64,000 nt of DNA from Pseudomonadota bacterium (GTDB lineage Bacteria; Desulfobacterota; Syntrophorhabdia; Syntrophorhabdales; Syntrophorhabdaceae): contig JAPLKC010000035.1 of NCBI GenBank assembly GCA_026388255.1, positions 1-64,000 of the forward strand. The letters are read 5' to 3'. The position numbers and the translations under genes were made by a program. Below the pieces are notes generated by a model, which saw only the letters and a program-made list of their open reading frames with translations, had not been told where the DNA came from and did no database searches. Every line of letters starts with the position of its first letter. The first letter of the stretch is position 1. Below, piece by piece: positions 7,908 through 33,363 of the stretch.

Positions 7908-8852
7908 TTGACAGAAGAGATTAATCTATCAATTATCATTGTAAGCTGGAATACGAAAGATTTGTTGCTGCAATGTTTACGATCTGTTATTTCAGAAATA
8001 AGTGTGTTCAGATCAGAAATTATAGTAGTTGATAATGCATCAACTGATGGTTCCGCTGCCATGGTGGAACAAATTTTCCCTGAAGTTACTCTTATAAAAA
8101 ACACATCCAACCTTGGTTTTGCAAAGGCAAACAATATTGGAATTCAACGAAGTCGAGGTAAATACATTTGTTTAATAAACTCCGACATAATAGTAGAACG
8201 TTTCTGTATAGTTAACTTATATAATTACGTTGAGCAATATCCGCAAATTGCTATAGTAGCTCCAAAAATATTAAATCCGGACAGCACGCTCCAACCTTCA
8301 TGTAAACAATTTCCAACATTATGGAATTGTACGTGTCGAGCTCTGGCTTTTGATACTTTATTTCCAGGAACGTCGTTGTTTAGCGGCCAATTGATGACTT
8401 TTTGGGCACATAATCAAATCAGGCGAGTAGATTCTCTCAGCGGTTGTTTTATGATGGTACGGCGTGAGGCAATAGATCAGGCGGGTTTGCTCGACGATTC
8501 CTTTTTTATGTACGCTGAGGACAAAGACTGGTGTAAGAGGTTTTGGGGTGCTGGTTGGCAGGTTGTGTTTTATCCGGGATCGACGGCTATTCATTTTGGC
8601 GGAGCAAGTTCTTCCATTGCTCCAGCAGAGTTTGCTATTGAGGAATGGCGTGCAAATCTGCAATATTGGAGAAAACATTACAATACACTGCAGCAGGCAG
8701 GATTTTATCTGATTATCATACTTCATGAACTGGTAAGAACCGTTATCGGATTAGCCGTCTATTTGGTAAAGCCATCTAAAAGAGATGTGATGTTAAATAA
8801 AATTAAGTCAAGTGCCGCATGCCTTCACTGGATGATTTCGCGAACCCCATAA
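7908..8852 (+). CDS. Family 2 glycosyltransferase
   Basis: A 314-residue GT-A enzyme. LSIIIVSWNTKDLL starts the nucleotide-binding half. VVDNASTDGS, LINSDIIV (the DxD-like metal motif), and SGCFMMVRREAIDQAGLLDDSFFMYAEDKDWCKR follow. This layout is usual for rhamnosyl- or related transferases acting on lipid-linked glycans. A C-terminal hydrophobic stretch (FYLIIILHELVRTVIGLAVYL) may attach it to the membrane. The start is TTG at 7908; no better codon precedes the conserved region. Confidence 0.85.
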   Translation: MTEEINLSIIIVSWNTKDLLLQCLRSVISEISVFRSEIIVVDNASTDGSAAMVEQIFPEVTLIKNTSNLGFAKANNIGIQRSRGKYICLINSDIIVERFCIVNLYNYVEQYPQIAIVAPKILNPDSTLQPSCKQFPTLWNCTCRALAFDTLFPGTSLFSGQLMTFWAHNQIRRVDSLSGCFMMVRREAIDQAGLLDDSFFMYAEDKDWCKRFWGAGWQVVFYPGSTAIHFGGASSSIAPAEFAIEEWRANLQYWRKHYNTLQQAGFYLIIILHELVRTVIGLAVYLVKPSKRDVMLNKIKSSAACLHWMISRTP

Positions 8853-8872
8853 ATTGATCTACTTACGGAAAA

Positions 8873-9757
8873 ATGTACGTCCTAATAACCCCCGCAAGGA
8901 ATGAAGAATCCTTTATTGGAAAAACGATTGAGGCAGTAGCTGCTCAATCTGTTCTCCCGAAGGAATGGGTGATCGTTAATGATGGGTCAACAGACCGCAC
9001 TGAGGAAGTAGTTGCTTCATATCAGAGAGATCATAGTTTTATAAGACTTATATCTGTCTCTGAACATCAGGGACGGAATTTTAACTCGAAAGCGTATGCC
9101 TTCCAGGCAGGTTACAGGAGATTAGAGTCTAAAGATTACCACTTTATAGGTAATTTGGATGCTGATGTTTCTTTTGAATCTGATTATTATAAAAATATAT
9201 TGGAAAAGTTCAGCGAAAATTTAAAACTGGGAATAGCAGGCGGAATTATTGCCGAGCTGGTAAATAATGTTTATGTATTACAAAACATCAGCCTCAACAG
9301 TGTCGCAGGGGCAACTCAATTGTTTCGTCGGGAGTGCTATGAAAATATCGGAGGATATATCCCTATCATGACCGGGGGGATAGATACTGCGGCCGAAATA
9401 ATGGCGAGGTCGAAGGGGTGGGAGGTGAGAACATTCCCGGAACTTACAGTGCTCCATCACCGACGCGTTGCTTCTGGAAAAGGGAATATATTAGCCGAAG
9501 GATTTCGAAAGGGAATTTCACACTACCTGCTCGGGTATCACCCGTTATTTCAGGTAGCACGGTATATGTCACGCATTAAGGATAAACCATATATACTGGG
9601 AAGCTTTTTTATATTGTCAGGCTATCTTTGGGCTCTGGTCCGTCGATACAAAAGGCCAATCCCTGATGATGTTGTGCGATATCTGAGAAAGGAACAGATG
9701 AGACGGTTATGGTCGTTTCTTGCTACAGGGAGTCGTCAAAAAACAGGATCAGGATAG
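8873..9757 (+). CDS. Family 2 glycosyltransferase
   Basis: A 294-residue GT-A protein starting MYVLITPARNEESFIGKTI. It has VIVNDGSTDRTEEVV, an NLDADVSFE metal-binding segment and TQLFRRECYENIGGYIPI, the acceptor-side motif. It sits 20 bases downstream of another glycosyltransferase. The 3' end lies 29 bases before the AsnB start, in the same operon. Donor and acceptor sugars cannot be named. Confidence 0.85.
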   Translation: MYVLITPARNEESFIGKTIEAVAAQSVLPKEWVIVNDGSTDRTEEVVASYQRDHSFIRLISVSEHQGRNFNSKAYAFQAGYRRLESKDYHFIGNLDADVSFESDYYKNILEKFSENLKLGIAGGIIAELVNNVYVLQNISLNSVAGATQLFRRECYENIGGYIPIMTGGIDTAAEIMARSKGWEVRTFPELTVLHHRRVASGKGNILAEGFRKGISHYLLGYHPLFQVARYMSRIKDKPYILGSFFILSGYLWALVRRYKRPIPDDVVRYLRKEQMRRLWSFLATGSRQKTGSG

Positions 9758-9786
9758 ACTTTCTCTCTCAAAAAAAAAGGCAGAAT

Positions 9787-11655
9787 ATGTGCGGAATTTG
9801 CGGCCAGTTTAATTATGTGGAGAACTCTCCGGTGGATGTTTCAGTCGTGAGAGCTATGGCCCGCGCTTTGTCTCACCGGGGGCCGGATGATGAAGGATAT
9901 CATTTTTCCGGTTCTATTGGATTAGGTTTTAGAAGATTGTCGATAATAGACCTTGAAGGCGGCCACCAACCTATGTCTGACAGTGAAGAGACGATATGGG
10001 TAGTGTTTAATGGTGAAATTTATAATTTTCCTGAATTAAGAGTCGAGCTTGAAAGTCAAGGATATATTTTTAGAACGAAATCAGATACAGAAGTCATAAT
10101 CCATGGTTACAAACATTGGGATGACGATGTTCTTCAACATTTGAACGGGATATTCGGGCTCGCTATATGGGATGAAAGAAAACAAAAACTTATTCTGGCA
10201 CGTGACCGTTTAGGTGTTAAGCCTGTATATTACAAGATTCAGGATGGGTCTCTCTGGTTTGCTTCAGAAATGAGGTCTATAACAACCAGTGAAAGAGGGA
10301 AACCCGATGTTGATCCGGTGGCTATCAACCTTTTCCTGAGATACAGATACACTCCGTCCCCGCTTACCATAATCAATGGTATTAAAAAGCTTGCCCCGGG
10401 AACAAAATTGACTGTTGAGAAGGGAAGGTATCTGGTTGAACGCTGGTGGAAGTACCAACCGATTCCCTTTGACCCTTTGCCCGATTTCAGACAGGCCGAA
10501 GACGATCTTCTTCATCTTTACAAGCGGGCAGTTAAAAGGCAACTCATAAGCGATGTCCCGCTTGGTCTTCTATTGAGCGGAGGTGTAGATTCGGGACTAC
10601 TTCTTGCTCTTATGGAGGCACATGGCAGTGATTGGCAGACATTCACTGTTGGTTTTGGCGACGAATTCCGTGACGATGAGCTTGATGCGGCAGCCAATAC
10701 TGCTCGTATTCTCGGGGCGCGCAATAGTGGAATCAAGATGGAAAAGAAAGACTTCGATGATATATTTTCGAAAGTCGTATGGGCGTTAGAGGAGCCTATT
10801 GCAGCCTCATCAGCCATACCAATGTACAGTCTGTGCGAACATGTTCGGAGCAAGGTGAAGGTCGCGCTCATGGGGCAAGGCCCCGATGAGTTGTTCGGCG
10901 GATACAAAAGGCATATCGGTGTCCAATACGGTCGATATTGGAGAGCATTGCCGAAACCGTTTAGAAAACTCATGGGTTCTGTTGTGGGGTACTTACCGCG
11001 GAATGAAGCTGCCAAACGAGCAATATACTCCTTAGATGTACAGGAAAGGATGGTCAGGTATCAACATGTGTTTTCACTTATGTCCGGTGGATTTGTCGAC
11101 AGCCTTTTTCAGGACGGCATTTTACCTGATGGGGCTGGAGACAGGATTCTCGAATGCTGGCAAGGTCTAGAACCCATGATAGAATATACTGATGAACTCG
11201 GAGGTTTCCAATTCCTGGAGGTTCGGTCTGCTCTTCCTGATGAATTGTTGCTTTATGCAGATAAACTTTCTATGGCGCATGGTCTTGAGATAAGAGTTCC
11301 TTTTTTGGATCAGGAGGTTGTGGAATACGCGGAAAAACTTCCGGCATCTTATAAAGTACGTAACGGATCAGGGAAATGGATACACAAGCAGGTATGCAAG
11401 AGATTCCTGCCTGATGAGATTATTAAAAGAAGAAAGCTCGGTTTTGTTACGCCTGTTGATGAGTGGTTTCGTCAGGGGGTGTACGGTGGTGCAGAGAGCA
11501 GCCTGCTTGATAATAATGCTATAATGTATAACTATTTTCAGTATGAAAGAGTCCAGCAACTGATCAAAGAGCATCGAAGCGGTCGACACAATCACTTCAA
11601 GATACTCTTTAGTCTTCTTTTCCTTAATGCTTGGTTTAACACGTTTTTGTCATGA
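9787..11655 (+). CDS. asnB: Glutamine-dependent asparagine synthase-like amidotransferase
   Basis: A 622-residue protein with an N-terminal class II glutaminase domain and a C-terminal synthetase domain. I place the start at ATG 9787 because it makes Cys2 (MCGICGQF) the catalytic nucleophile; a longer frame from 9709 would bury it. Glutaminase landmarks are LSHRGPDDEG and VFNGEIYNFPELR. The ATP-pyrophosphatase loop is LLSGGVDSG, with MGQGPDELFGGYKRH later. Homologues are standard members of exosortase/EPS loci. There the product is probably an amidated sugar or peptide rather than free asparagine, which is an inference. Confidence 0.88.
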   Translation: MCGICGQFNYVENSPVDVSVVRAMARALSHRGPDDEGYHFSGSIGLGFRRLSIIDLEGGHQPMSDSEETIWVVFNGEIYNFPELRVELESQGYIFRTKSDTEVIIHGYKHWDDDVLQHLNGIFGLAIWDERKQKLILARDRLGVKPVYYKIQDGSLWFASEMRSITTSERGKPDVDPVAINLFLRYRYTPSPLTIINGIKKLAPGTKLTVEKGRYLVERWWKYQPIPFDPLPDFRQAEDDLLHLYKRAVKRQLISDVPLGLLLSGGVDSGLLLALMEAHGSDWQTFTVGFGDEFRDDELDAAANTARILGARNSGIKMEKKDFDDIFSKVVWALEEPIAASSAIPMYSLCEHVRSKVKVALMGQGPDELFGGYKRHIGVQYGRYWRALPKPFRKLMGSVVGYLPRNEAAKRAIYSLDVQERMVRYQHVFSLMSGGFVDSLFQDGILPDGAGDRILECWQGLEPMIEYTDELGGFQFLEVRSALPDELLLYADKLSMAHGLEIRVPFLDQEVVEYAEKLPASYKVRNGSGKWIHKQVCKRFLPDEIIKRRKLGFVTPVDEWFRQGVYGGAESSLLDNNAIMYNYFQYERVQQLIKEHRSGRHNHFKILFSLLFLNAWFNTFLS

Positions 11656-18642: not shown

Positions 18643-20607
18643 ATGGGATTAGGTTATACAATCTTCTATTGTTTTATTTTGTTAGTCATCGGTTTATTTC
18701 CGTTTAATTTCCGACAATCCAACAATGCGTTGTTGAATCAGATTGACGGACTTATGCTTGCCCCGCCGAGTACGGTTTATACACTGGCTCCACCTGAAAA
18801 GTTGGTCAATATAAATGAACTTTCAGTTTTAGTAGAGTTGAAAACAGATTTTACCCAGGAAAGCGGGTATGCAAGAATTATCAGTTACTCGCTGGATCCT
18901 GAAAATATGAATTTTAGGGTGGCTCAATGGGAAGATCGTTTAATTTTTGAATTGAAAACTGCTGATGCTCCCAGGGGACTCCATTTTGAAGTTCTTAACA
19001 TCTTCAACAATAATGCAAGAAAGTGGATTCTAATAAGTTGCAAGGGCAATAAAATAGCTTTTTATAAAGATGGTGAATTAAGAAAAACGATTGAAACCGG
19101 ACAAATAGATTTTGCAAATTGGGATAAAACCTATCCACTTTCTGTTGGAAGCGAAAGCAATGGGAAATTTTGCTGGGGTGGAAGTATTAACCGGATTGCC
19201 ATTTATGCACGCTCATTTATGCCTGAAGAAGTAATGGATTTATATTTGCACCCCTTGGAAGTACGTCCTTTAATTTATTATTCTTTTACCGGAAACCAAA
19301 ATCGTTTGATTGCCGACCAGGGAATAGGGAAACCTTCTAATTTGTCAGTTCCGGAACATTTCACGCCATACAAAAGAAGCACCCTGGAGAAATTCTATAA
19401 GCCCTATGGCACGACATGGCGCAGCTATAAATATCATTTGCTCGACATATTGGTTAATATCATCGGGTTTATTCCTCTGGGATTTTTATTGGCATCATAT
19501 ATTGTACGAAAAAAATTACCGTTGATTCTATCAATATTGCTGCCGACTCTGGGAGGTTTTATTGTTAGTTTTACAATCGAGATATTACAAACATACCTGC
19601 CGGGACGTTCTTCCAGCTTGAATGATCTTATATGCAACACTATCGGGGTATTGTCCGGTTCCTTTGCTTTTTGCATCCTTCATTTGACATTCAAGGAAGA
19701 TGAAAAAACAGTCCTGGCCAGGGGCGTAAAACATATGGCCAAAAAACTGGAATATCACAGGTATATAGGACTCATTATCTTTACCCTTGCGACATTGTGG
19801 ATGTTTTATGAACCGTTGAGAGAGCTTTTACGTTTCTACTGGGACAGCGAATATTATTCCCATATTATCATCATTCCCCTTATAAGCGGATTTTTTCTTT
19901 ACAAGAGCAGAAATGAATTATTTGGTGCACCTCGGTATTCTTTTTTTGTTGGGAGTATTGTAATAGCTTTCAGTATTTCTATCTATATTTTGGGGCAAAC
20001 GGTTTTTGTTTATCTTAACCAGAATGATTATGCAGCACTGGTAACTTTTTCCGGTATTGTTCTCTGGATTGGCGCTTTCATATTTTTTTATGGTACACAT
20101 TCTTTCAGGAAGGCATTTTTTCCGTTTTTCTTTCTCCTCTTTATGGTACCGATCCCGAGCGTAATTATGGATAAGATTCTTTATGTTTTGCAAACTACTT
20201 CAAGTTGGGTAACCTGTATTCTTTTTAAAATTGCCCAGATTCCGTTCACCAAAGATGGATTTATTTTTGTTTTGCCCAATAATTTATATATACGAATAGC
20301 GGTTGAGTGCAGCGGAATCCGTTCCTCGATAGCGTTGTTGATAATAAGCGTAATAGTAAATCATATATATTTGAGGAAGAAGTGGAACAAGACCGTGCTC
20401 CTTGCTGCTGTATTTCCAATAACAGTTGTCAAAAATGGTATTAGAATTTTTGTTCTCAGCCTGTTAGGAATATATGTGGACCGGAAGTTTGTTGTTTCAG
20501 GATTTCTGCACGAGGCAGGCGGTATTTTTTTCTATCTTCCCGCCCTTTTACTTTTTTTGTTTGTTCTCGGTTATCTTGTGAAGCGTGAACAAAAAACTGA
20601 AAAATAA
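18643..20607 (+). CDS. LamG-VanZ-exosortase fusion, catalytically complete
   Basis: A 654-residue inner-membrane protein with three parts. After one membrane segment (residues 3-20) a concanavalin/LamG-like domain spans about 40-205 (ESGYARIISYSLDPENMNFR, ENGKFCWGGSIN-type). A VanZ domain spans about 265-350 (DILVNIIGFIPLGFLLASYI, STLND-like SSSLNDLICN). An exosortase domain spans about 373-650. The catalytic triad is intact: Cys556 in VECSGIRSS, Arg601 in KNGIRIF, His623 in GFLHEAGG. Exosortases cleave C-terminal sorting signals such as PEP-CTERM. The PEP-CTERM protein at 32740 is a candidate substrate. The function of the LamG and VanZ parts is unknown; LamG suggests glycan binding. Confidence 0.88.
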   Translation: MGLGYTIFYCFILLVIGLFPFNFRQSNNALLNQIDGLMLAPPSTVYTLAPPEKLVNINELSVLVELKTDFTQESGYARIISYSLDPENMNFRVAQWEDRLIFELKTADAPRGLHFEVLNIFNNNARKWILISCKGNKIAFYKDGELRKTIETGQIDFANWDKTYPLSVGSESNGKFCWGGSINRIAIYARSFMPEEVMDLYLHPLEVRPLIYYSFTGNQNRLIADQGIGKPSNLSVPEHFTPYKRSTLEKFYKPYGTTWRSYKYHLLDILVNIIGFIPLGFLLASYIVRKKLPLILSILLPTLGGFIVSFTIEILQTYLPGRSSSLNDLICNTIGVLSGSFAFCILHLTFKEDEKTVLARGVKHMAKKLEYHRYIGLIIFTLATLWMFYEPLRELLRFYWDSEYYSHIIIIPLISGFFLYKSRNELFGAPRYSFFVGSIVIAFSISIYILGQTVFVYLNQNDYAALVTFSGIVLWIGAFIFFYGTHSFRKAFFPFFFLLFMVPIPSVIMDKILYVLQTTSSWVTCILFKIAQIPFTKDGFIFVLPNNLYIRIAVECSGIRSSIALLIISVIVNHIYLRKKWNKTVLLAAVFPITVVKNGIRIFVLSLLGIYVDRKFVVSGFLHEAGGIFFYLPALLLFLFVLGYLVKREQKTEK

Positions 20608-20642: not shown

Positions 20643-22100
20643 ATGCTTTTCAATTCATACCAATATATTTTTCTTTTTCTTCCACTGTGTTTAATCATAT
20701 TTCTTTATCTCAACAAAAGGAATATGCTGGTTGCCGCTAAGTTTTGGCTGGTCTGTGCTTCTCTCTTTTTTTATGGTTGGTTCAATTTTTATTATGTCAT
20801 ATTGTTAGTAGGAAGCGTGTTGATAAATTATCTTTTCAGTATGAAATTATTAATGCGCAAGAACTATGTTTGCTTCAACAAGAAAGTAATCTTAGCCCTG
20901 GCAATATTGTTAAACCTTGTCTTACTGGCATTTTATAAATATACGAATCTGTTAATAAATCAGTTCGCAGGTAATGATAGCATACTAAAGCTGATCAATA
21001 TAGCGCTGCCGATCGGAATAAGTTTTTTTACTTTTACTCAGATTATATACCTTATTGATTCATACAGAGGCAGGGTTTCGAAATTCGGTTTATTGGACTA
21101 TTCTCTTTTTGTGACATTCTTTCCTTATTTGGTTTCGGGTCCCATAGTTTATCAGCAAGAGGTTTTACCTCAGTTCGAAGTATCTGAAAAAAAGAATCTT
21201 AATTATAAAAACCTTTCTATAGGAATTTTTTTATTTTCCATTGGCCTGTTTAAAAAAGCTGTGATCGGTGATACACTTTCCGAATGGGCAAACACCGGAT
21301 TTGATATAGCCGACAAATTAAAGTTAATAGAAGCCTGGATAACAAGCTTATCTTATACACTTCAGTTATATTTCGATTTTTCGGGATATACCGATATGGC
21401 ATTGGGAAGCGCCCTCATGTTTAATATCGAGCTTCCGATAAATTTTAACAGTCCCTACAAATCTCTTAATATTCAGGATTTTTGGAGGCGCTGGCATATT
21501 ACGCTCAGCAGGTTTTTGAGAGAATATATTTATGTGCCGCTGGGCGGTAGCCGTGTGTCGGATGTGAGAATAATAATTAACATTATGATTACTTTTCTGT
21601 TGTGCGGCCTCTGGCATGGTGCCGGCTGGATGTTTCTCTTCTGGGGTTTTTTTCATGGCGCAGGAATTGTTGTATTCAGAATGTGGAGGAAACTTAACAT
21701 CAATCTGCCGAAAATAATAGCCTGGTGCATTACTTTTAATTTTATAAATATTGCATGGGTTTTTTTCAGAGCAAGAAATTTTCATGATGCTCTCAAAGTG
21801 ATAGATGGAATGCTTGGCATGAACGGAGTGGCGGTACCGGCATGGCTTGGGGACAAGCTGTTATTTTTGCGCATTTATGGCGTAGAATTCCAACCTCTTT
21901 TGATAAATATCGAGGGCGACCGGAAGGCATTGTTCGCTATTATAGCCTTTTTCGCGGCCTCAGTTTTTTTCAGAAATTCTAACGAATTGGCACGAGACTT
22001 TAAAAGTAACTTGTTGTCGCTTGTCTTTGCGGTTATTTTATTTTGTGTATCAATGTTACATTTAAGCAACTATTCGGAGTTTCTTTATTTCAGGTTTTAG
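20643..22100 (+). CDS. MBOAT-family membrane O-acyltransferase (AlgI-like)
   Basis: A 485-residue polytopic membrane protein of the MBOAT family. Diagnostic motifs are YFDFSGYTDMALGSALMF, the RRWHITLSRFLREYIYVPLGG stretch, and LWHGAGWMFLFWGFFHGAG with the conserved catalytic histidine. AlgI-type proteins pass acyl groups across the membrane for O-acetylation of exopolysaccharides. The SGNH-like gene starts 1 base after its stop, giving an AlgI/AlgJ-like pair. The pair sits between two exosortase paralogues. Confidence 0.9.
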   Translation: MLFNSYQYIFLFLPLCLIIFLYLNKRNMLVAAKFWLVCASLFFYGWFNFYYVILLVGSVLINYLFSMKLLMRKNYVCFNKKVILALAILLNLVLLAFYKYTNLLINQFAGNDSILKLINIALPIGISFFTFTQIIYLIDSYRGRVSKFGLLDYSLFVTFFPYLVSGPIVYQQEVLPQFEVSEKKNLNYKNLSIGIFLFSIGLFKKAVIGDTLSEWANTGFDIADKLKLIEAWITSLSYTLQLYFDFSGYTDMALGSALMFNIELPINFNSPYKSLNIQDFWRRWHITLSRFLREYIYVPLGGSRVSDVRIIINIMITFLLCGLWHGAGWMFLFWGFFHGAGIVVFRMWRKLNINLPKIIAWCITFNFINIAWVFFRARNFHDALKVIDGMLGMNGVAVPAWLGDKLLFLRIYGVEFQPLLINIEGDRKALFAIIAFFAASVFFRNSNELARDFKSNLLSLVFAVILFCVSMLHLSNYSEFLYFRF

Positions 22101-22101
22101 A

Positions 22102-23226
22102 ATGAAGTTAAATAGAGAGTTTACATTTGCAGGTTGGCTTAGAAGATTTTTATTATTATCATTAATCATTGTCATGATAACGGTAATACTAAACTATTTC
22201 CTTGACACAATGGGTATATTCAATCCTGAAAAAGGTCTGAGAAAAGCAGCTAAAAGCTTGTTGGCCGGGAATATGATTGCGGGACTTGGCGATATTGATG
22301 ATCGAAAATTTCAGGAGCTTATTGTTGATACCAATAAAAATAGAGTTAGTGAAATTGTGCTTGGTTCATCGCGGAGCTTACAACTCGAAAAGAATATAAT
22401 GGCAGGAAAAAATCATGATTATGTTTTCTTAAATCATTCTGTGCCAAGAGGAACACTGGATGATTTCATAGCGATTATTGGTTTATATATGAGCAAAAAG
22501 AAGTATATCCCAAAAACAGTTGTCCTGGCAGCGGATCCATGGCTATTTAACGTTAACAACGAGATAGATGCATGGAAGTCCTTAAAACCTTTTCATGAGT
22601 ATGTATTGCGGGGCATGTACGGAAAAAAAATCAAAGATGATATCGACCTGTCATCCGCTAAAAACAAATACAAATTGTTGATAAATTGGCAATATACCGT
22701 AAAAAATATAATTTCTCTGAAAAGAAAAAGCATGTTTTATATTACAGAAAATGAAAATATTAATGACGACATCAGAAGACCTGACGGATCCCTGGTATAT
22801 CCTGTTAGCATAAGACTTCAGAGCGATGATGAAGGGATTATGAAAGCAAAGGCTTATGCAAGGGGGCCGGTTCATCTGATGGAAAACTTTGATAAATTAT
22901 CGAATATAAAACTTTTCGAAGATTTTTTGAACTATATAGCGGACAATGACAGTGAAGTGATAATACTTCTAATACCCTTTCACCCGGTTGCGTACAATCT
23001 TTTAATCAATAATCCGAAATATAACATTATGCAGGGCGCGGAAGTGTATTTGAAAAATCTTTGCAGCAAAAATAATTTCAGAATTTTAGGTTCATATGAT
23101 CCTGAAAAAAATAACTTGCAGAACAATGATTTTTTCGACGGAGTTCACATGAAAGAATCGGGTTTCAGAAAAATAATACCGCCCCAAAAAAACAGTACAC
23201 GTAAAAAACGGACTGAAGTCCCGTAA
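22102..23226 (+). CDS. SGNH-like protein, partner of the MBOAT acyltransferase
   Basis: A 374-residue protein with one N-terminal membrane anchor (residues 13-34, FLLLSLIIVMITVILNYFL). The rest is probably periplasmic. SGNH-type blocks are visible: VLGSSRSLQLE (block I serine) near residue 88 and FFDGVHMKESGFRKI (block V, Asp/His) near the end. Partner proteins of this layout accept acyl groups from MBOAT proteins and transfer them to the polysaccharide. The link is based on adjacency (1 base) and these motifs. It ends with a basic tail. Confidence 0.7.
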   Translation: MKLNREFTFAGWLRRFLLLSLIIVMITVILNYFLDTMGIFNPEKGLRKAAKSLLAGNMIAGLGDIDDRKFQELIVDTNKNRVSEIVLGSSRSLQLEKNIMAGKNHDYVFLNHSVPRGTLDDFIAIIGLYMSKKKYIPKTVVLAADPWLFNVNNEIDAWKSLKPFHEYVLRGMYGKKIKDDIDLSSAKNKYKLLINWQYTVKNIISLKRKSMFYITENENINDDIRRPDGSLVYPVSIRLQSDDEGIMKAKAYARGPVHLMENFDKLSNIKLFEDFLNYIADNDSEVIILLIPFHPVAYNLLINNPKYNIMQGAEVYLKNLCSKNNFRILGSYDPEKNNLQNNDFFDGVHMKESGFRKIIPPQKNSTRKKRTEVP

Positions 23227-23252: not shown

Positions 23253-25229
23253 ATGACGTTAATTTGTCTTTATAGTTATATACTTTTGTTGATTTTCACA
23301 GGCTTGTGGCCGTTCACCTTTTTTCCGGAAAACAGGGTGACCGTTGACAGCCTTAAGGGGCTTCACCTTACGCCCCCAGCCACTCTTTACACCGAAGCGC
23401 CACCGGAAAAACTATCTCAACTGCGGGAATTTACCTTTCTTTTACGCCTGTCTTCGAATTTTTCCGGTGAGAGCGGCTACGCAAGAATTTTGAGTTATTC
23501 TATTAATTATTCATCCATGAACTTTATGCTGGCTCAGTGGAAAGATCGCTTAATTTGCAGAATTAAGACGGATAGCAACGAAAACACTATTCATTTTGAG
23601 GTCTTGGAGTTTTTTAAGAAAGGCACTGAAAATCGGCTTGCCGTTGTCTTTAAGAATAATGAATTTAATGTATATCGGGATGGAGAAAGAAAAAAAGCGA
23701 TTAGTTTAGATCCTATGAAGGTTTTTAAATGGAACCATTCATACCCCCTTGTCCTTGGATCAGATGCCGACGGAAAATTTTGTTGGGGGGGCAATATTTA
23801 TTCATTAAGCATATATGATCGAGCACTTTCCGCTGCAGAGGTTCTGGAACCTCCGGTAAAGCAGCCTGAGAAACTTCCGTTAATCCATTATTCTTTTCGA
23901 GAAATCAAGAACTCGAAGATTTTGGACGAGGGAAAGGGCCCCCCGGCTAACCTGACTGTACCTCGCTATTATATTCCATATAAAAGACCTTTCTTTAATA
24001 TTTTCCCGACCGACAGGGTCAATTTGAGATACAATTTATTGGATATAGTTATCAATATTTTGAGTTTTATGCCAATCGGTCTTTTGATTTCTATTTATCT
24101 TTATTCTAAAAAAATGGCCTTTAAAATTCATCTTTTAGTCTCATTTTTAGTTGGTCTAAGCGTCAGTCTTCTGATTGAGTTTTTCCAGGCATTTATTCCT
24201 GTCAGGGATTCAACAATGAATGATGTTTTTGGGAATGTTGTAGGGGCATCTTTTGGAGCGATAATCTATTTCTTTTTACATGTCCGGAGGATTTTTCAGC
24301 AAGGCATTATTAAAGAGAGGACAGGAACCAGAAATTGGCAGGCATCTGGCATAAGTCAAAAATCAATGCATTTCATAGCAAGTATAGACAACAGGCACAT
24401 CCTGTTTCTTACGTTGCTTCTAATTTCAATTACCATTATCTACACACCCTACAGAACATTGTTGGGAACCTATATGACGATAGACTCTTATATACATATA
24501 ATTTTTGTTCCCATAGTATGTGGGTATTTGTTTTACGAGAAAAAGGAAGCAATTTTTCGCCAATTTTCCTACGATGTGAAGATAGGTGTTCCTATAGCTA
24601 CTGCAGGAATAGGTATTTTACTAATAGGGAACAAATATGGTAGACACCTCAACATAAACGATTACACGTCAATTATAATGTTATCGGATGCTGTTTTCTG
24701 GTCAGGTTCATGTATTATTCTTTATGGATTAAAAGCTTTTCGGGCAGCGTTAATACCCCTTCTTTTTCTTGTTTTTTTGATTCCAATTCCAACTCTGGTG
24801 CAAAACAAAGTGGCAACGATAATACAGTCAATCCTCAGCAATATCACGAGTCTGGTTTTTAAGGCCATTAACTTACCGTTTATCAACAATGGATCGGTTT
24901 TCTACCTCCAGGATAACCTCAATTTGGATATCGCGTATTGTGCCAGCCGAATCCCGTTGATTTTCGCGCTGTTTATCCTGGCCTTTTTGGTAAGCCATAT
25001 TTTTCTGGCAACAGGTTGGAAAAAACTTGTTCTAACCTTTTCCATCCTCCCCGTTGTTCTGTTGAGTAATTGTGTCAATATCCTTGTGCTGGCGTTGCTT
25101 GGGGTGTATATGGATGATAGGATTCTATCGCTGGAATTGTCGAGCACATCTATGGGTTTATTCTTTTATATCCCAGTATTGGTTTTGTTCCTTCCAATTC
25201 TCTGGATTTTCAGAATGTCAGACAAGTAA
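23253..25229 (+). CDS. LamG-VanZ-exosortase paralogue lacking the catalytic triad
   Basis: A 658-residue paralogue of the protein at 18643 with the same order: anchor, LamG-like domain (about 36-205), VanZ (about 260-345), exosortase-like region (about 378-650). Gap-free alignment of the C-terminal 90 residues shows the catalytic positions changed. Cys is Ala564 (a Cys sits one residue earlier, IAYCASRIP), Arg is Asn609 (SNCVNIL), and His is Ser631 (LELSSTSMG). The membrane segments are preserved. I infer a non-catalytic exosortase, perhaps a scaffold or a glycan/sorting-signal-binding protein. The frame is intact, so this is not simple decay. Confidence 0.85.
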   Translation: MTLICLYSYILLLIFTGLWPFTFFPENRVTVDSLKGLHLTPPATLYTEAPPEKLSQLREFTFLLRLSSNFSGESGYARILSYSINYSSMNFMLAQWKDRLICRIKTDSNENTIHFEVLEFFKKGTENRLAVVFKNNEFNVYRDGERKKAISLDPMKVFKWNHSYPLVLGSDADGKFCWGGNIYSLSIYDRALSAAEVLEPPVKQPEKLPLIHYSFREIKNSKILDEGKGPPANLTVPRYYIPYKRPFFNIFPTDRVNLRYNLLDIVINILSFMPIGLLISIYLYSKKMAFKIHLLVSFLVGLSVSLLIEFFQAFIPVRDSTMNDVFGNVVGASFGAIIYFFLHVRRIFQQGIIKERTGTRNWQASGISQKSMHFIASIDNRHILFLTLLLISITIIYTPYRTLLGTYMTIDSYIHIIFVPIVCGYLFYEKKEAIFRQFSYDVKIGVPIATAGIGILLIGNKYGRHLNINDYTSIIMLSDAVFWSGSCIILYGLKAFRAALIPLLFLVFLIPIPTLVQNKVATIIQSILSNITSLVFKAINLPFINNGSVFYLQDNLNLDIAYCASRIPLIFALFILAFLVSHIFLATGWKKLVLTFSILPVVLLSNCVNILVLALLGVYMDDRILSLELSSTSMGLFFYIPVLVLFLPILWIFRMSDK

Positions 25230-25380: not shown

Positions 25381-26673
25381 ATGGGAGTATCTAAACCTTA
25401 TTTAACTTCTTATCAGATTGTTTCTATATGTTTATTCACCATTCTTCTATTGACGGTTGTTCCTGCTGTTCAAGGGGAGACATACATAGATCAGCTTACT
25501 GGCATGGAGTTAATCCGTGTAAAAGGTGGATGTTATATTATTGGAGATACTTTTGATAAAGGCAGAGATGATGAAAGGCCTAATAAAGAAGTATGCATTG
25601 ATGATTTTTATTTGGGTAAGTATGAAGTTACTCAAATACAGTGGGCAACAATCATCGGGAAGAACCCATCCTATTTTCAAAAAGATGTGCACCAAATTTT
25701 CTGTGGCCTTAGGTTCTGTGTAGGTTGTCCTGAGAATGTTTGTGGTTTTATTGATCTCAGTAAGTTTCCCGTTGAAAATGTAAGCTGGGATGATATACAG
25801 GAATTCTTAGAAAAAATTAATAATAGAACTGGAAAAGACTATCGTTTGCCAACAGAAGCAGAGTGGGAATACGCTGCAAGGAGTGGTGGGAATAAGGAAA
25901 AATGGGCAGGGACACACTTTGAACTGGAACTTGATAAATATGCGTGGTATCGAGATACTTCAGGATACAGAACTCAACCTGTGGGGCAGATGAAACCCAA
26001 TGGGTTGGGGTTATACGACATGACAGGCAATGTCTGGGAGTGGGTTAATGACTGGTACGATGCGGATTATTATAAAACTATAAAAAAGAACAATCCTGAA
26101 GGTCCAAAAACAGGGGTATATCGTGTCATGCGTGGCGGTTCCTGGTTTGAGGATCCATGGGTTATACGGACAAGTTACCGCAACAGCGGTTTTCCGTATT
26201 TAAGAAGCACTAATGTAGGCTTCCGTCTGGCAATGTCGGCTCCAAAGCCGCCCCCTCCTATTGAAGAGCCGCCACCCAAGAAACCAATGGAAGTTACCAT
26301 CTTAGAAAAAGGACGGATCACCCTTGATATTCATTTTGATTTTGACAAGTGGAATATTAAACTCAAATACCATGAAGAAATTAAAAGATTTGCCGAAGTC
26401 ATGAAAAAATACCCTGACATGAAAGTTCAGATAGAAGGTCACACATGTATTATTGGAGGAGCAAAATATAACCTCAGACTCTCTCAAAGAAGGGCTGATA
26501 GCGTTCGAAAATATTTAATACAAAAATTTGGCATTGAACCATCACGATTAACCGCTAAGGGCTATGGGCTATCAAGACCAATTGCTTCCAACAAGACTGC
26601 GGAAGGGAGAAAACAGAATAGAAGGATTGAAGGGGTTGCAGAATATACGATTACAAAAACGAAGCCTTATTGA
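25381..26673 (+). CDS. Formylglycine-enzyme-like (SUMF1) domain fused to OmpA C-terminal domain
   Basis: A 430-residue exported protein. Residues 1-32 are a signal peptide (SICLFTILLLTVVPAVQG). Residues about 36-285 match the SUMF1/EgtB/PvdO fold: MELIRVKGGCYIIGDTF, DFYLGKYEVTQIQW, RLPTEAEWEYAARSGG, GLYDMTGNVWEWVNDWY, RVMRGGSW. A proline-rich hinge (about 289-302) leads to an OmpA peptidoglycan-binding domain (FDFDKWNIK, QIEGHTCIIGGAKYNLRLSQ, GYGLSRPIASN). It would therefore be periplasmic and tethered to the cell wall. Ribosome site GGAAAGGAG lies close upstream. The next gene overlaps or follows immediately. Confidence 0.85.
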   Translation: MGVSKPYLTSYQIVSICLFTILLLTVVPAVQGETYIDQLTGMELIRVKGGCYIIGDTFDKGRDDERPNKEVCIDDFYLGKYEVTQIQWATIIGKNPSYFQKDVHQIFCGLRFCVGCPENVCGFIDLSKFPVENVSWDDIQEFLEKINNRTGKDYRLPTEAEWEYAARSGGNKEKWAGTHFELELDKYAWYRDTSGYRTQPVGQMKPNGLGLYDMTGNVWEWVNDWYDADYYKTIKKNNPEGPKTGVYRVMRGGSWFEDPWVIRTSYRNSGFPYLRSTNVGFRLAMSAPKPPPPIEEPPPKKPMEVTILEKGRITLDIHFDFDKWNIKLKYHEEIKRFAEVMKKYPDMKVQIEGHTCIIGGAKYNLRLSQRRADSVRKYLIQKFGIEPSRLTAKGYGLSRPIASNKTAEGRKQNRRIEGVAEYTITKTKPY

Positions 26674-32669: not shown

Positions 32670-32739
32670 TTAAAGTTTAGTGTAATGGAAAAAACAATTT
32701 CCATTATAAGTATTGTTTTCAAAATTTGGAGGACAGAAC

Positions 32740-33363
32740 ATGAAAAAGACATTTTTAATCTTGGTGATAGTAGGTTTTATATGGGCACTCGGCGTCGGTA
32801 CCGGACTTGCCGACACTATAAATCTCCAGACTCTCCCGTCCAGCACCTATAATGGATACTATGTCGGCGGAGTAGGCGGAAACATCAATGGCGGACACAC
32901 GATGAGCTTTTATTGCAACGATTTCTCGACAACAACATATGTGCCAAGTTCTTTTGCCGTTGCAGTAAGTACCTTGTCCGACCTTTCCCAAACAAAATTT
33001 GGAGGTACACCTAATGCCCTGTCCAGATATCAGCAGGCAGGGTGGCTTATTAGTCAGATGGAACTTAACCCCTCTCAGGTGGGACCGATTCAGTATGCAT
33101 TATGGAGCGTCTTCAATTCATCAACGCCAAGCCCGCCCGGTGCAGCAAATTGGCTTAGCGCTGCAAGTTCCATAAACCCGGCTCAATTTGATTTCAGCTC
33201 GGTGCGTGTCTATACGGCGACCAATACCGTAAACCAGGAATTTATCAGTGGCGGGGCACATGCACTGCCTGAGCCGTCAATCATACTCCTGCTCAGCTTG
33301 GGCCTTGGCTGTTTAGTCTTAGTCAAGCGGAGGCTGCAAAAAAAGACTGCACTCAGGGTTTAG
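32740..33363 (+). CDS. PEP-CTERM sorting-signal protein
   Basis: A 207-residue exported protein. ATG 32740 follows TTGGAGGA and begins the signal peptide MKKTFLILVIVGFIWALGVG, cleaved near GLADT. The C-terminus is a canonical exosortase signal: PEP in HALPEPSIILLLSLGL, a membrane segment, then KRRLQKK. The mature part is Ser/Thr/Gly/Asn-rich (NGYYVGGVGGNINGGHTMSF), as in surface proteins. The LamG-VanZ-exosortase at 18643 is a candidate processing enzyme. Such proteins are thought to be transferred to the exopolysaccharide or outer surface. It lies alone under a sigma-54 promoter. Confidence 0.9.
   Translation: MKKTFLILVIVGFIWALGVGTGLADTINLQTLPSSTYNGYYVGGVGGNINGGHTMSFYCNDFSTTTYVPSSFAVAVSTLSDLSQTKFGGTPNALSRYQQAGWLISQMELNPSQVGPIQYALWSVFNSSTPSPPGAANWLSAASSINPAQFDFSSVRVYTATNTVNQEFISGGAHALPEPSIILLLSLGLGCLVLVKRRLQKKTALRV

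Follow-up and report, generated by a model that had tools for sequence, protein, structure and literature searches.

The question raised by this locus is why a genome should keep, beside an active exosortase, a second full-length copy from which the catalytic residues are gone. The window, i.e., the whole stretch of 64,000 nucleotides that was analysed, contains two genes with an identical Pfam order (Laminin_G_3, VanZ, Exosortase_EpsH), the active paralogue lying 2.6 kb upstream of what will be called the dead copy (Table 1). The two proteins are 36–37% identical (36% over 648 columns in BLASTP). The first-pass annotation had paired Cys556, Arg601 and His623 of the active protein with Ala564, Asn609 and Ser631 of the dead one, and the pairing was confirmed: BLASTP aligns C556/R601/H623 with A564/N609/S631, while MAFFT introduces a single gap close to the His and pairs H623 with Ser630 instead, so that the residue is Ser under both alignments. 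The alignment had been described as free of gaps, which is true of the exosortase domain and not of the first half of the protein or the linker. The search for an alternative alignment that would restore the triad found none, since past residue 560 the dead copy has a single His (H582) and only three Arg (R566, R623 and R654), none of them suitably placed, and no shift can therefore rebuild Cys/Arg/His. A realignment through Cys563 was also considered and discarded, because neither an Arg nor a His accompanies this Cys.

Exosortases share six invariant residues, in the motifs C-x-G, N-x-x-R and H-x-x-x-G (Haft et al. 2006, PMC1569441), and in the related archaeosortase the Cys and the Arg were found to be required by site-directed mutagenesis (PMC9263693). 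The dead copy has lost four of the six and keeps N606 and G635; judged from these residues, it is incapable of cleaving sorting signals, or of transferring them, in the manner of an exosortase. Its homology to the eight-helix EpsH domain is nonetheless established by PF09721, which scores 92.5–96 bits against 146.7 for the active paralogue (cut-off 25.7). The narrower models separate the two proteins, the dead copy falling below the cut-off and the active one above it for both TIGR02602 (66.8 and 119.2 bits, cut-off 105.55) and TIGR04178 (21.7 and 49.7 bits, cut-off 23). Hydropathy showed the membrane segments to be retained, so that the annotated preservation of domain order and membrane segments was right on both counts. 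An AlphaFold2 model of the dead copy built on a two-sequence alignment had a pLDDT of 39, too low to use, and a search of solved structures gave no real match.

Table 1. Positions of the two paralogues, their catalytic sites and neighbours in the window, and of the second pseudo-exosortase in other genomes.
Feature	Position	Strand	Evidence or remark
Amidotransferase, XrtA/PEP-CTERM EPS type	9709..11655	+	TIGR03108, 509 bits, below equivalog cut-off 816.9
LamG-VanZ-exosortase, active paralogue	18643..20607	+	654 aa, frame open
Triad of active paralogue: C556, R601, H623	20308-20310, 20443-20445, 20509-20511	+	Alignment
MBOAT / DltB-like O-acyltransferase, between both copies	20643..22100	+	PF03062, 119.7 bits
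DUF1574 protein, partner gene of the MBOAT (predicted acetylation-type pair)	22102..23226	+	PF07611, 31.8 bits
LamG-VanZ-pseudo-exosortase, dead copy	23253..25229	+	658 aa, ATG start, frame open
LamG / concanavalin-like domain, dead copy	23385..23852 (approximate, aa 45-200)	+	PF13385, 38.6 bits
VanZ domain, dead copy	24018..24278 (aa 256-342)	+	PF04892, 49.8 bits
Exosortase_EpsH domain without catalytic residues, dead copy	24429..25208 (aa 393-652)	+	PF09721
New Cys563, directly before Ala564	24939-24941	+	Dead copy
Ala564, replacing nucleophile Cys	24942..24944	+	BLASTP and MAFFT alignments
New Cys607	25071-25073	+	Dead copy
Asn609, replacing catalytic Arg	25077..25079	+	BLASTP and MAFFT alignments
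Ser631, replacing catalytic His (Ser630 in MAFFT)	25143..25145	+	BLASTP and MAFFT alignments
FGE-sulfatase/OmpA-domain protein, downstream of dead copy	25381..26673	+	Pfam
PEP-CTERM protein, likely exosortase substrate	32713..33363	+	TIGR02595, 22.4-26.4 bits, cut-off 16
G246/G288 pseudo-exosortase	L214:7519-8388 and L215:6792-7661		PF09721, 80 and 72 bits

The pattern of change in the dead copy was followed over 57 conserved exosortase columns, defined from 22 active relatives. Of these columns 35 survive in the dead copy and 48 in the active paralogue; for those up to five residues from the triad the figures are 8 and 17 of 19, and elsewhere the dead copy keeps 27 of 38 (hand count), so that, as aligned, its losses cluster at the catalytic motifs. 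An error of assembly or sequencing, which might be suspected in a draft genome of 147 contigs, can be set aside as refuted for practical purposes, as 22 differences among 57 conserved columns, in a clean 658-codon frame with 37% identity to its paralogue, do not look like error. A three-way comparison with the homologous fusion of genome G003 (see below) counted the columns in which one protein was the odd one out: in LamG these were 24 for the dead copy, 34 for the active copy and 30 for G003, in the exosortase domain 53, 36 and 22 (Fisher p = 0.0035 for LamG versus exosortase). Branch lengths agree, with 1.07 for the dead exosortase domain against 0.60, 0.57 and 0.42 in active relatives, and, for the LamG–VanZ part, 0.73 in the dead copy and 0.81 in the active one. 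Tajima tests with 25 outgroups, which are related to one another so that the tests are not independent, gave p < 0.05 with most of them for the exosortase domain and none significant for LamG–VanZ. By these measures evolution has been faster in the exosortase domain of the dead copy than in that of the active one, but not in the LamG–VanZ part.

This acceleration is what would be expected under the main rival explanation, in which selection acts on LamG–VanZ alone while the exosortase domain decays as a relic, carried along and not yet truncated. LamG–VanZ can evidently work alone, since it exists as a separate gene, beside an exosortase or without one, in G352, G009, G283, G201 and G311. To a relic, however, stops and frameshifts should have come, and the dead frame has neither. 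In 300 runs of a neutral simulation, in which the active exosortase domain was drifted to an amino-acid p-distance of 0.38 (and also to 0.57), drift to 0.38 produced a mean of 5.5 stops and not one run without a stop (0/300), compared with the 0 stops observed, and drift to divergence of this order yields 5–8; the claim that the paralogue is held open is thereby supported. The hydropathy of the membrane columns is likewise retained, at 1.99 against simulated values of 1.67 (to 0.38) and 1.43 (to 0.57), with a standard deviation of about 0.2, and losses gathered at the catalytic motifs are not the even spread of decay. Moreover, the exosortase domain is C-terminal, so that a stop there would spare LamG–VanZ, as in the stand-alone genes, yet no truncation has occurred. 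Taken together, the absence of stops, the hydropathy above neutral expectation and the C-terminal position suggest that the exosortase domain is kept, and we regard the relic explanation as unlikely, if still the strongest competitor. The simulation gives no date for the loss of the triad, and an open frame would be uninformative if the loss were very recent; the raised divergence argues against that. Frame and hydropathy have been kept despite catalytic loss, as seen in a single draft genome, and because about 440 genomes yielded no orthologue of the dead copy, selection on it is something that we infer rather than measure directly.

The first-pass annotation had correctly seen an intact, retained paralogue with a degenerate site; what it overlooked were the two other domains, a VanZ domain with an intact motif and a lectin-like LamG domain. 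In VanZ-1 proteins helix 2 carries a conserved Asn, helix 4 a DxDDxxxN motif and helix 3 an ExxQ that is shared with the Skillet families; the chemistry predicted for VanZ (a prediction only) concerns the head groups of lipid-carrier-linked polysaccharides, and fusions of VanZ to concanavalin-like domains have been reported (PMC12419801). In the dead copy N268, E309xxQ312 and D324xxxN328 are intact, with DxDDxxxN only partly present, and the active copy has the same residues at matching positions, which limits the catalytic loss to the exosortase module. With the VanZ motif intact and LamG–VanZ not accelerated, the retained function of the dead copy may be the VanZ/lectin one.

Relatives of the dead protein were sought in three overlapping sets, the genome itself with 98 related ones, 395 of the phylum and 46 of the class (about 440 distinct genomes in all), and PF09721 was searched in the 395 phylum genomes, with loci examined in selected ones. 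Among these roughly 440 genomes, 45 others of the same class included, none yielded an orthologue of the dead copy, and G001, from the same genus, has no such system. When the retrieved exosortases were aligned to an HMM, about 144 distinct ones from the phylum showed Cys/Arg/His; a full-length row in which all three residues are replaced occurs just once, for the dead copy, the other losses of all three being those of a tandem pair in G246 and G288. That homologues are catalytic at these positions had been named as evidence that could count against a pseudoenzyme; active relatives are indeed catalytic there, which shows only that the loss is lineage-specific. The C/R/Y, C/R/- and C/R/N rows were left out of the count of dead exosortases. 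The first two types were rejected as dead because they are short CNGLE-type members in which the third residue is poorly aligned; such short exosortase/archaeosortase members (L153, L149, L159 and L223) have a Tyr aligned at the His site, possibly through an alignment shift.

The only other full-length LamG–VanZ–exosortase fusion, that of G003 in the same family (L034:8807-10837), has its triad and occupies by synteny the position of the dead copy, with an MBOAT and its neighbouring gene upstream and, on the downstream side, a UDP-sugar dehydrogenase and the FGE/OmpA protein; inserted polymerase-like and asparagine-synthase genes are also present at this locus. Its FGE-sulfatase/OmpA counterpart sits one gene downstream of that active fusion, and in the window, too, an FGE-sulfatase domain is fused to an OmpA domain, with the synteny conserved. 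Elsewhere the parts occur apart, with one stand-alone LamG–VanZ gene adjoining an exosortase (L081:5992-7107). In G009 a single contig carries LamG–VanZ and an exosortase as distinct genes; two exosortase copies that differ slightly (L035, L036), located at the ends of contigs and perhaps reflecting a recent duplication or strain variation, are separated from LamG–VanZ there by small hicAB-like and four-helix-bundle-like genes. In G352 the LamG–VanZ gene is divergent from, and adjacent to, an exosortase lying near PrsK, and in G283 and G201 LamG–VanZ occurs without an exosortase match. A related-locus search of genome contigs matched only one VanZ-like stretch. As to origin, the exosortase tree groups the dead copy with G003 (90%) and the LamG–VanZ tree groups the dead and active copies weakly (52%); the two trees thus disagree on whether the copies are in-genome duplicates, and the long dead branch can mislead.

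The neighbours of the dead copy are exopolysaccharide (EPS) and O-acetylation-type genes, and FemAB-like genes with scores below their equivalog cut-offs are also found in the window. The source genome has three TIGR02595 PEP-CTERM matches above the cut-off, one of them in the window, and PEP-CTERM proteins also occur in the G246, G288, G003, G009 and G352 genomes. A third exosortase of this genome, encoded separately on contig C85 (L037, about 8719-9609), has its triad intact and adjoins a protein whose end resembles a PEP-CTERM tail (SVPEQSS...) and which is not among the TIGR02595 matches; the two are possibly a dedicated pair.

On this evidence we consider it rather probable that the window gene is a pseudo-exosortase devoid of exosortase catalysis, retained and probably functional, that combines a VanZ/lectin unit with a non-catalytic scaffold. 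The LamG–VanZ–exosortase fusion would have been duplicated or acquired in parallel, with the upstream copy continuing to sort PEP-CTERM proteins. The dead copy would keep its VanZ and lectin activities, with the chemistry predicted for lipid-carrier-linked polysaccharide, and its exosortase domain would be a scaffold or docking module without catalysis, whose probable task is to pair with the active exosortase or to keep the latter's substrate near the polysaccharide machinery. The proposed docking or partner role is plausible. A variant of the receptor idea in the first-pass annotation would make the dead copy a regulatory decoy that competes for PEP-CTERM tails, as a dominant-negative or a storage receptor; PEP-CTERM proteins are encoded in the genome, one within the window, and the dead and active copies have their architecture in common, but the residues lining the catalytic motifs, which probably contact the signal, are those that changed most, and a decoy seems improbable. 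A new active site is less probable still. It might be built from Cys563 or Cys607, both at or near the old site and new relative to the active copy, with Asn or Ser, and have another peptidase, transferase or thiol activity, and N606 is indeed kept; against this, both Arg and His are absent from the site, the new residues are common to no homologue, so that no conserved new motif can be demonstrated, and the tandem pseudo-exosortases of G246 and G288 carry a different set of residues.

These tandem genes are an instance of the paired active and inactive copies for which the first-pass annotation had proposed a survey. G246 and G288 are congeneric species from a different family of the same phylum, and their EPS locus runs from an active exosortase through a 290-aa PF09721 protein to EpsI. 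As aligned, the 290-aa protein preserves none of the six invariant residues (LPVQYFRESIS, MISHSIIY); a conserved Cys pattern, CETINC, is also seen in it. In each species the dead gene and its active neighbour share an ATGA overlap, which suggests coupled translation. The dead protein is 76% identical between the species, with a dN/dS of 0.23–0.26, i.e., purifying selection in spite of the lost catalytic residues, whereas its active partner is only 56% identical (dN/dS 0.23 by NG86, with dS saturated); the neighbouring glycosyltransferase has a dN/dS of 0.19. A dead exosortase can thus persist beside an active one, and this pair, which belongs to another lineage than the window gene, supports by analogy the general idea of a partner role. 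A bolder generalization, tentative and rather unlikely, is that exosortases can form heteromeric pairs in which a dead paralogue is obligate and either holds the tail or links it with the chemistry of the polysaccharide. The phylum would then have evolved this arrangement two or more times, and here the link would run through the fused intact VanZ, perhaps with a Cys563–Cys607 disulfide closing the old site.

The locus bears on the fate of PEP-CTERM proteins after exosortase cleavage and on the tie of sorting to polysaccharide export. The fusion of an exosortase to a lectin and to VanZ, predicted to act on lipid-carrier-linked glycans, suggests a physical link between the two, and dead copies kept beside active ones offer a genetic handle by which binding may be separated from catalysis. 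Our literature search, of partial coverage with most subscription journals outside it, found no description of the LamG–VanZ–exosortase architecture, nor any report joining exosortase with VanZ, pseudoenzyme or “catalytically inactive”. Pseudo-proteases are known in other membrane families, e.g., the iRhoms, which have kept the fold, lost the catalytic residues and are thought to bind clients. Their fold is unrelated, and function has been shown for them, whereas the window gene is known from its sequence. Closer in composition are the XrtE-type fusions of exosortase and CAAX protease (VPEID-CTERM), four EpsH–CAAX protease fusions having been reported (PMC1569441); these likewise join an exosortase to another membrane enzyme domain, which is however a different one, and the exosortase is assumed active there and is dead in the window gene. 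With the VanZ/Lipocone superfamily (PF04892; PMC12419801) the dead copy shares the N, ExxQ and DxxxN residues, an N-terminal lectin-like extracellular domain and the EPS context, and it differs in its fusion to an exosortase, “EpsH” being absent from that paper. From exosortases themselves (EpsH/Xrt; PF09721, TIGR02602) it differs by the loss of Cys/Arg/His, the scores below cut-off for TIGR02602 and TIGR04178 and the N-terminal fusion to LamG and VanZ; it is homologous to them across the whole eight-helix domain, with XrtA and XrtC as the best-matching NCBIfam types, and its genome resembles known exosortase systems in its EPS locus and PEP-CTERM proteins.
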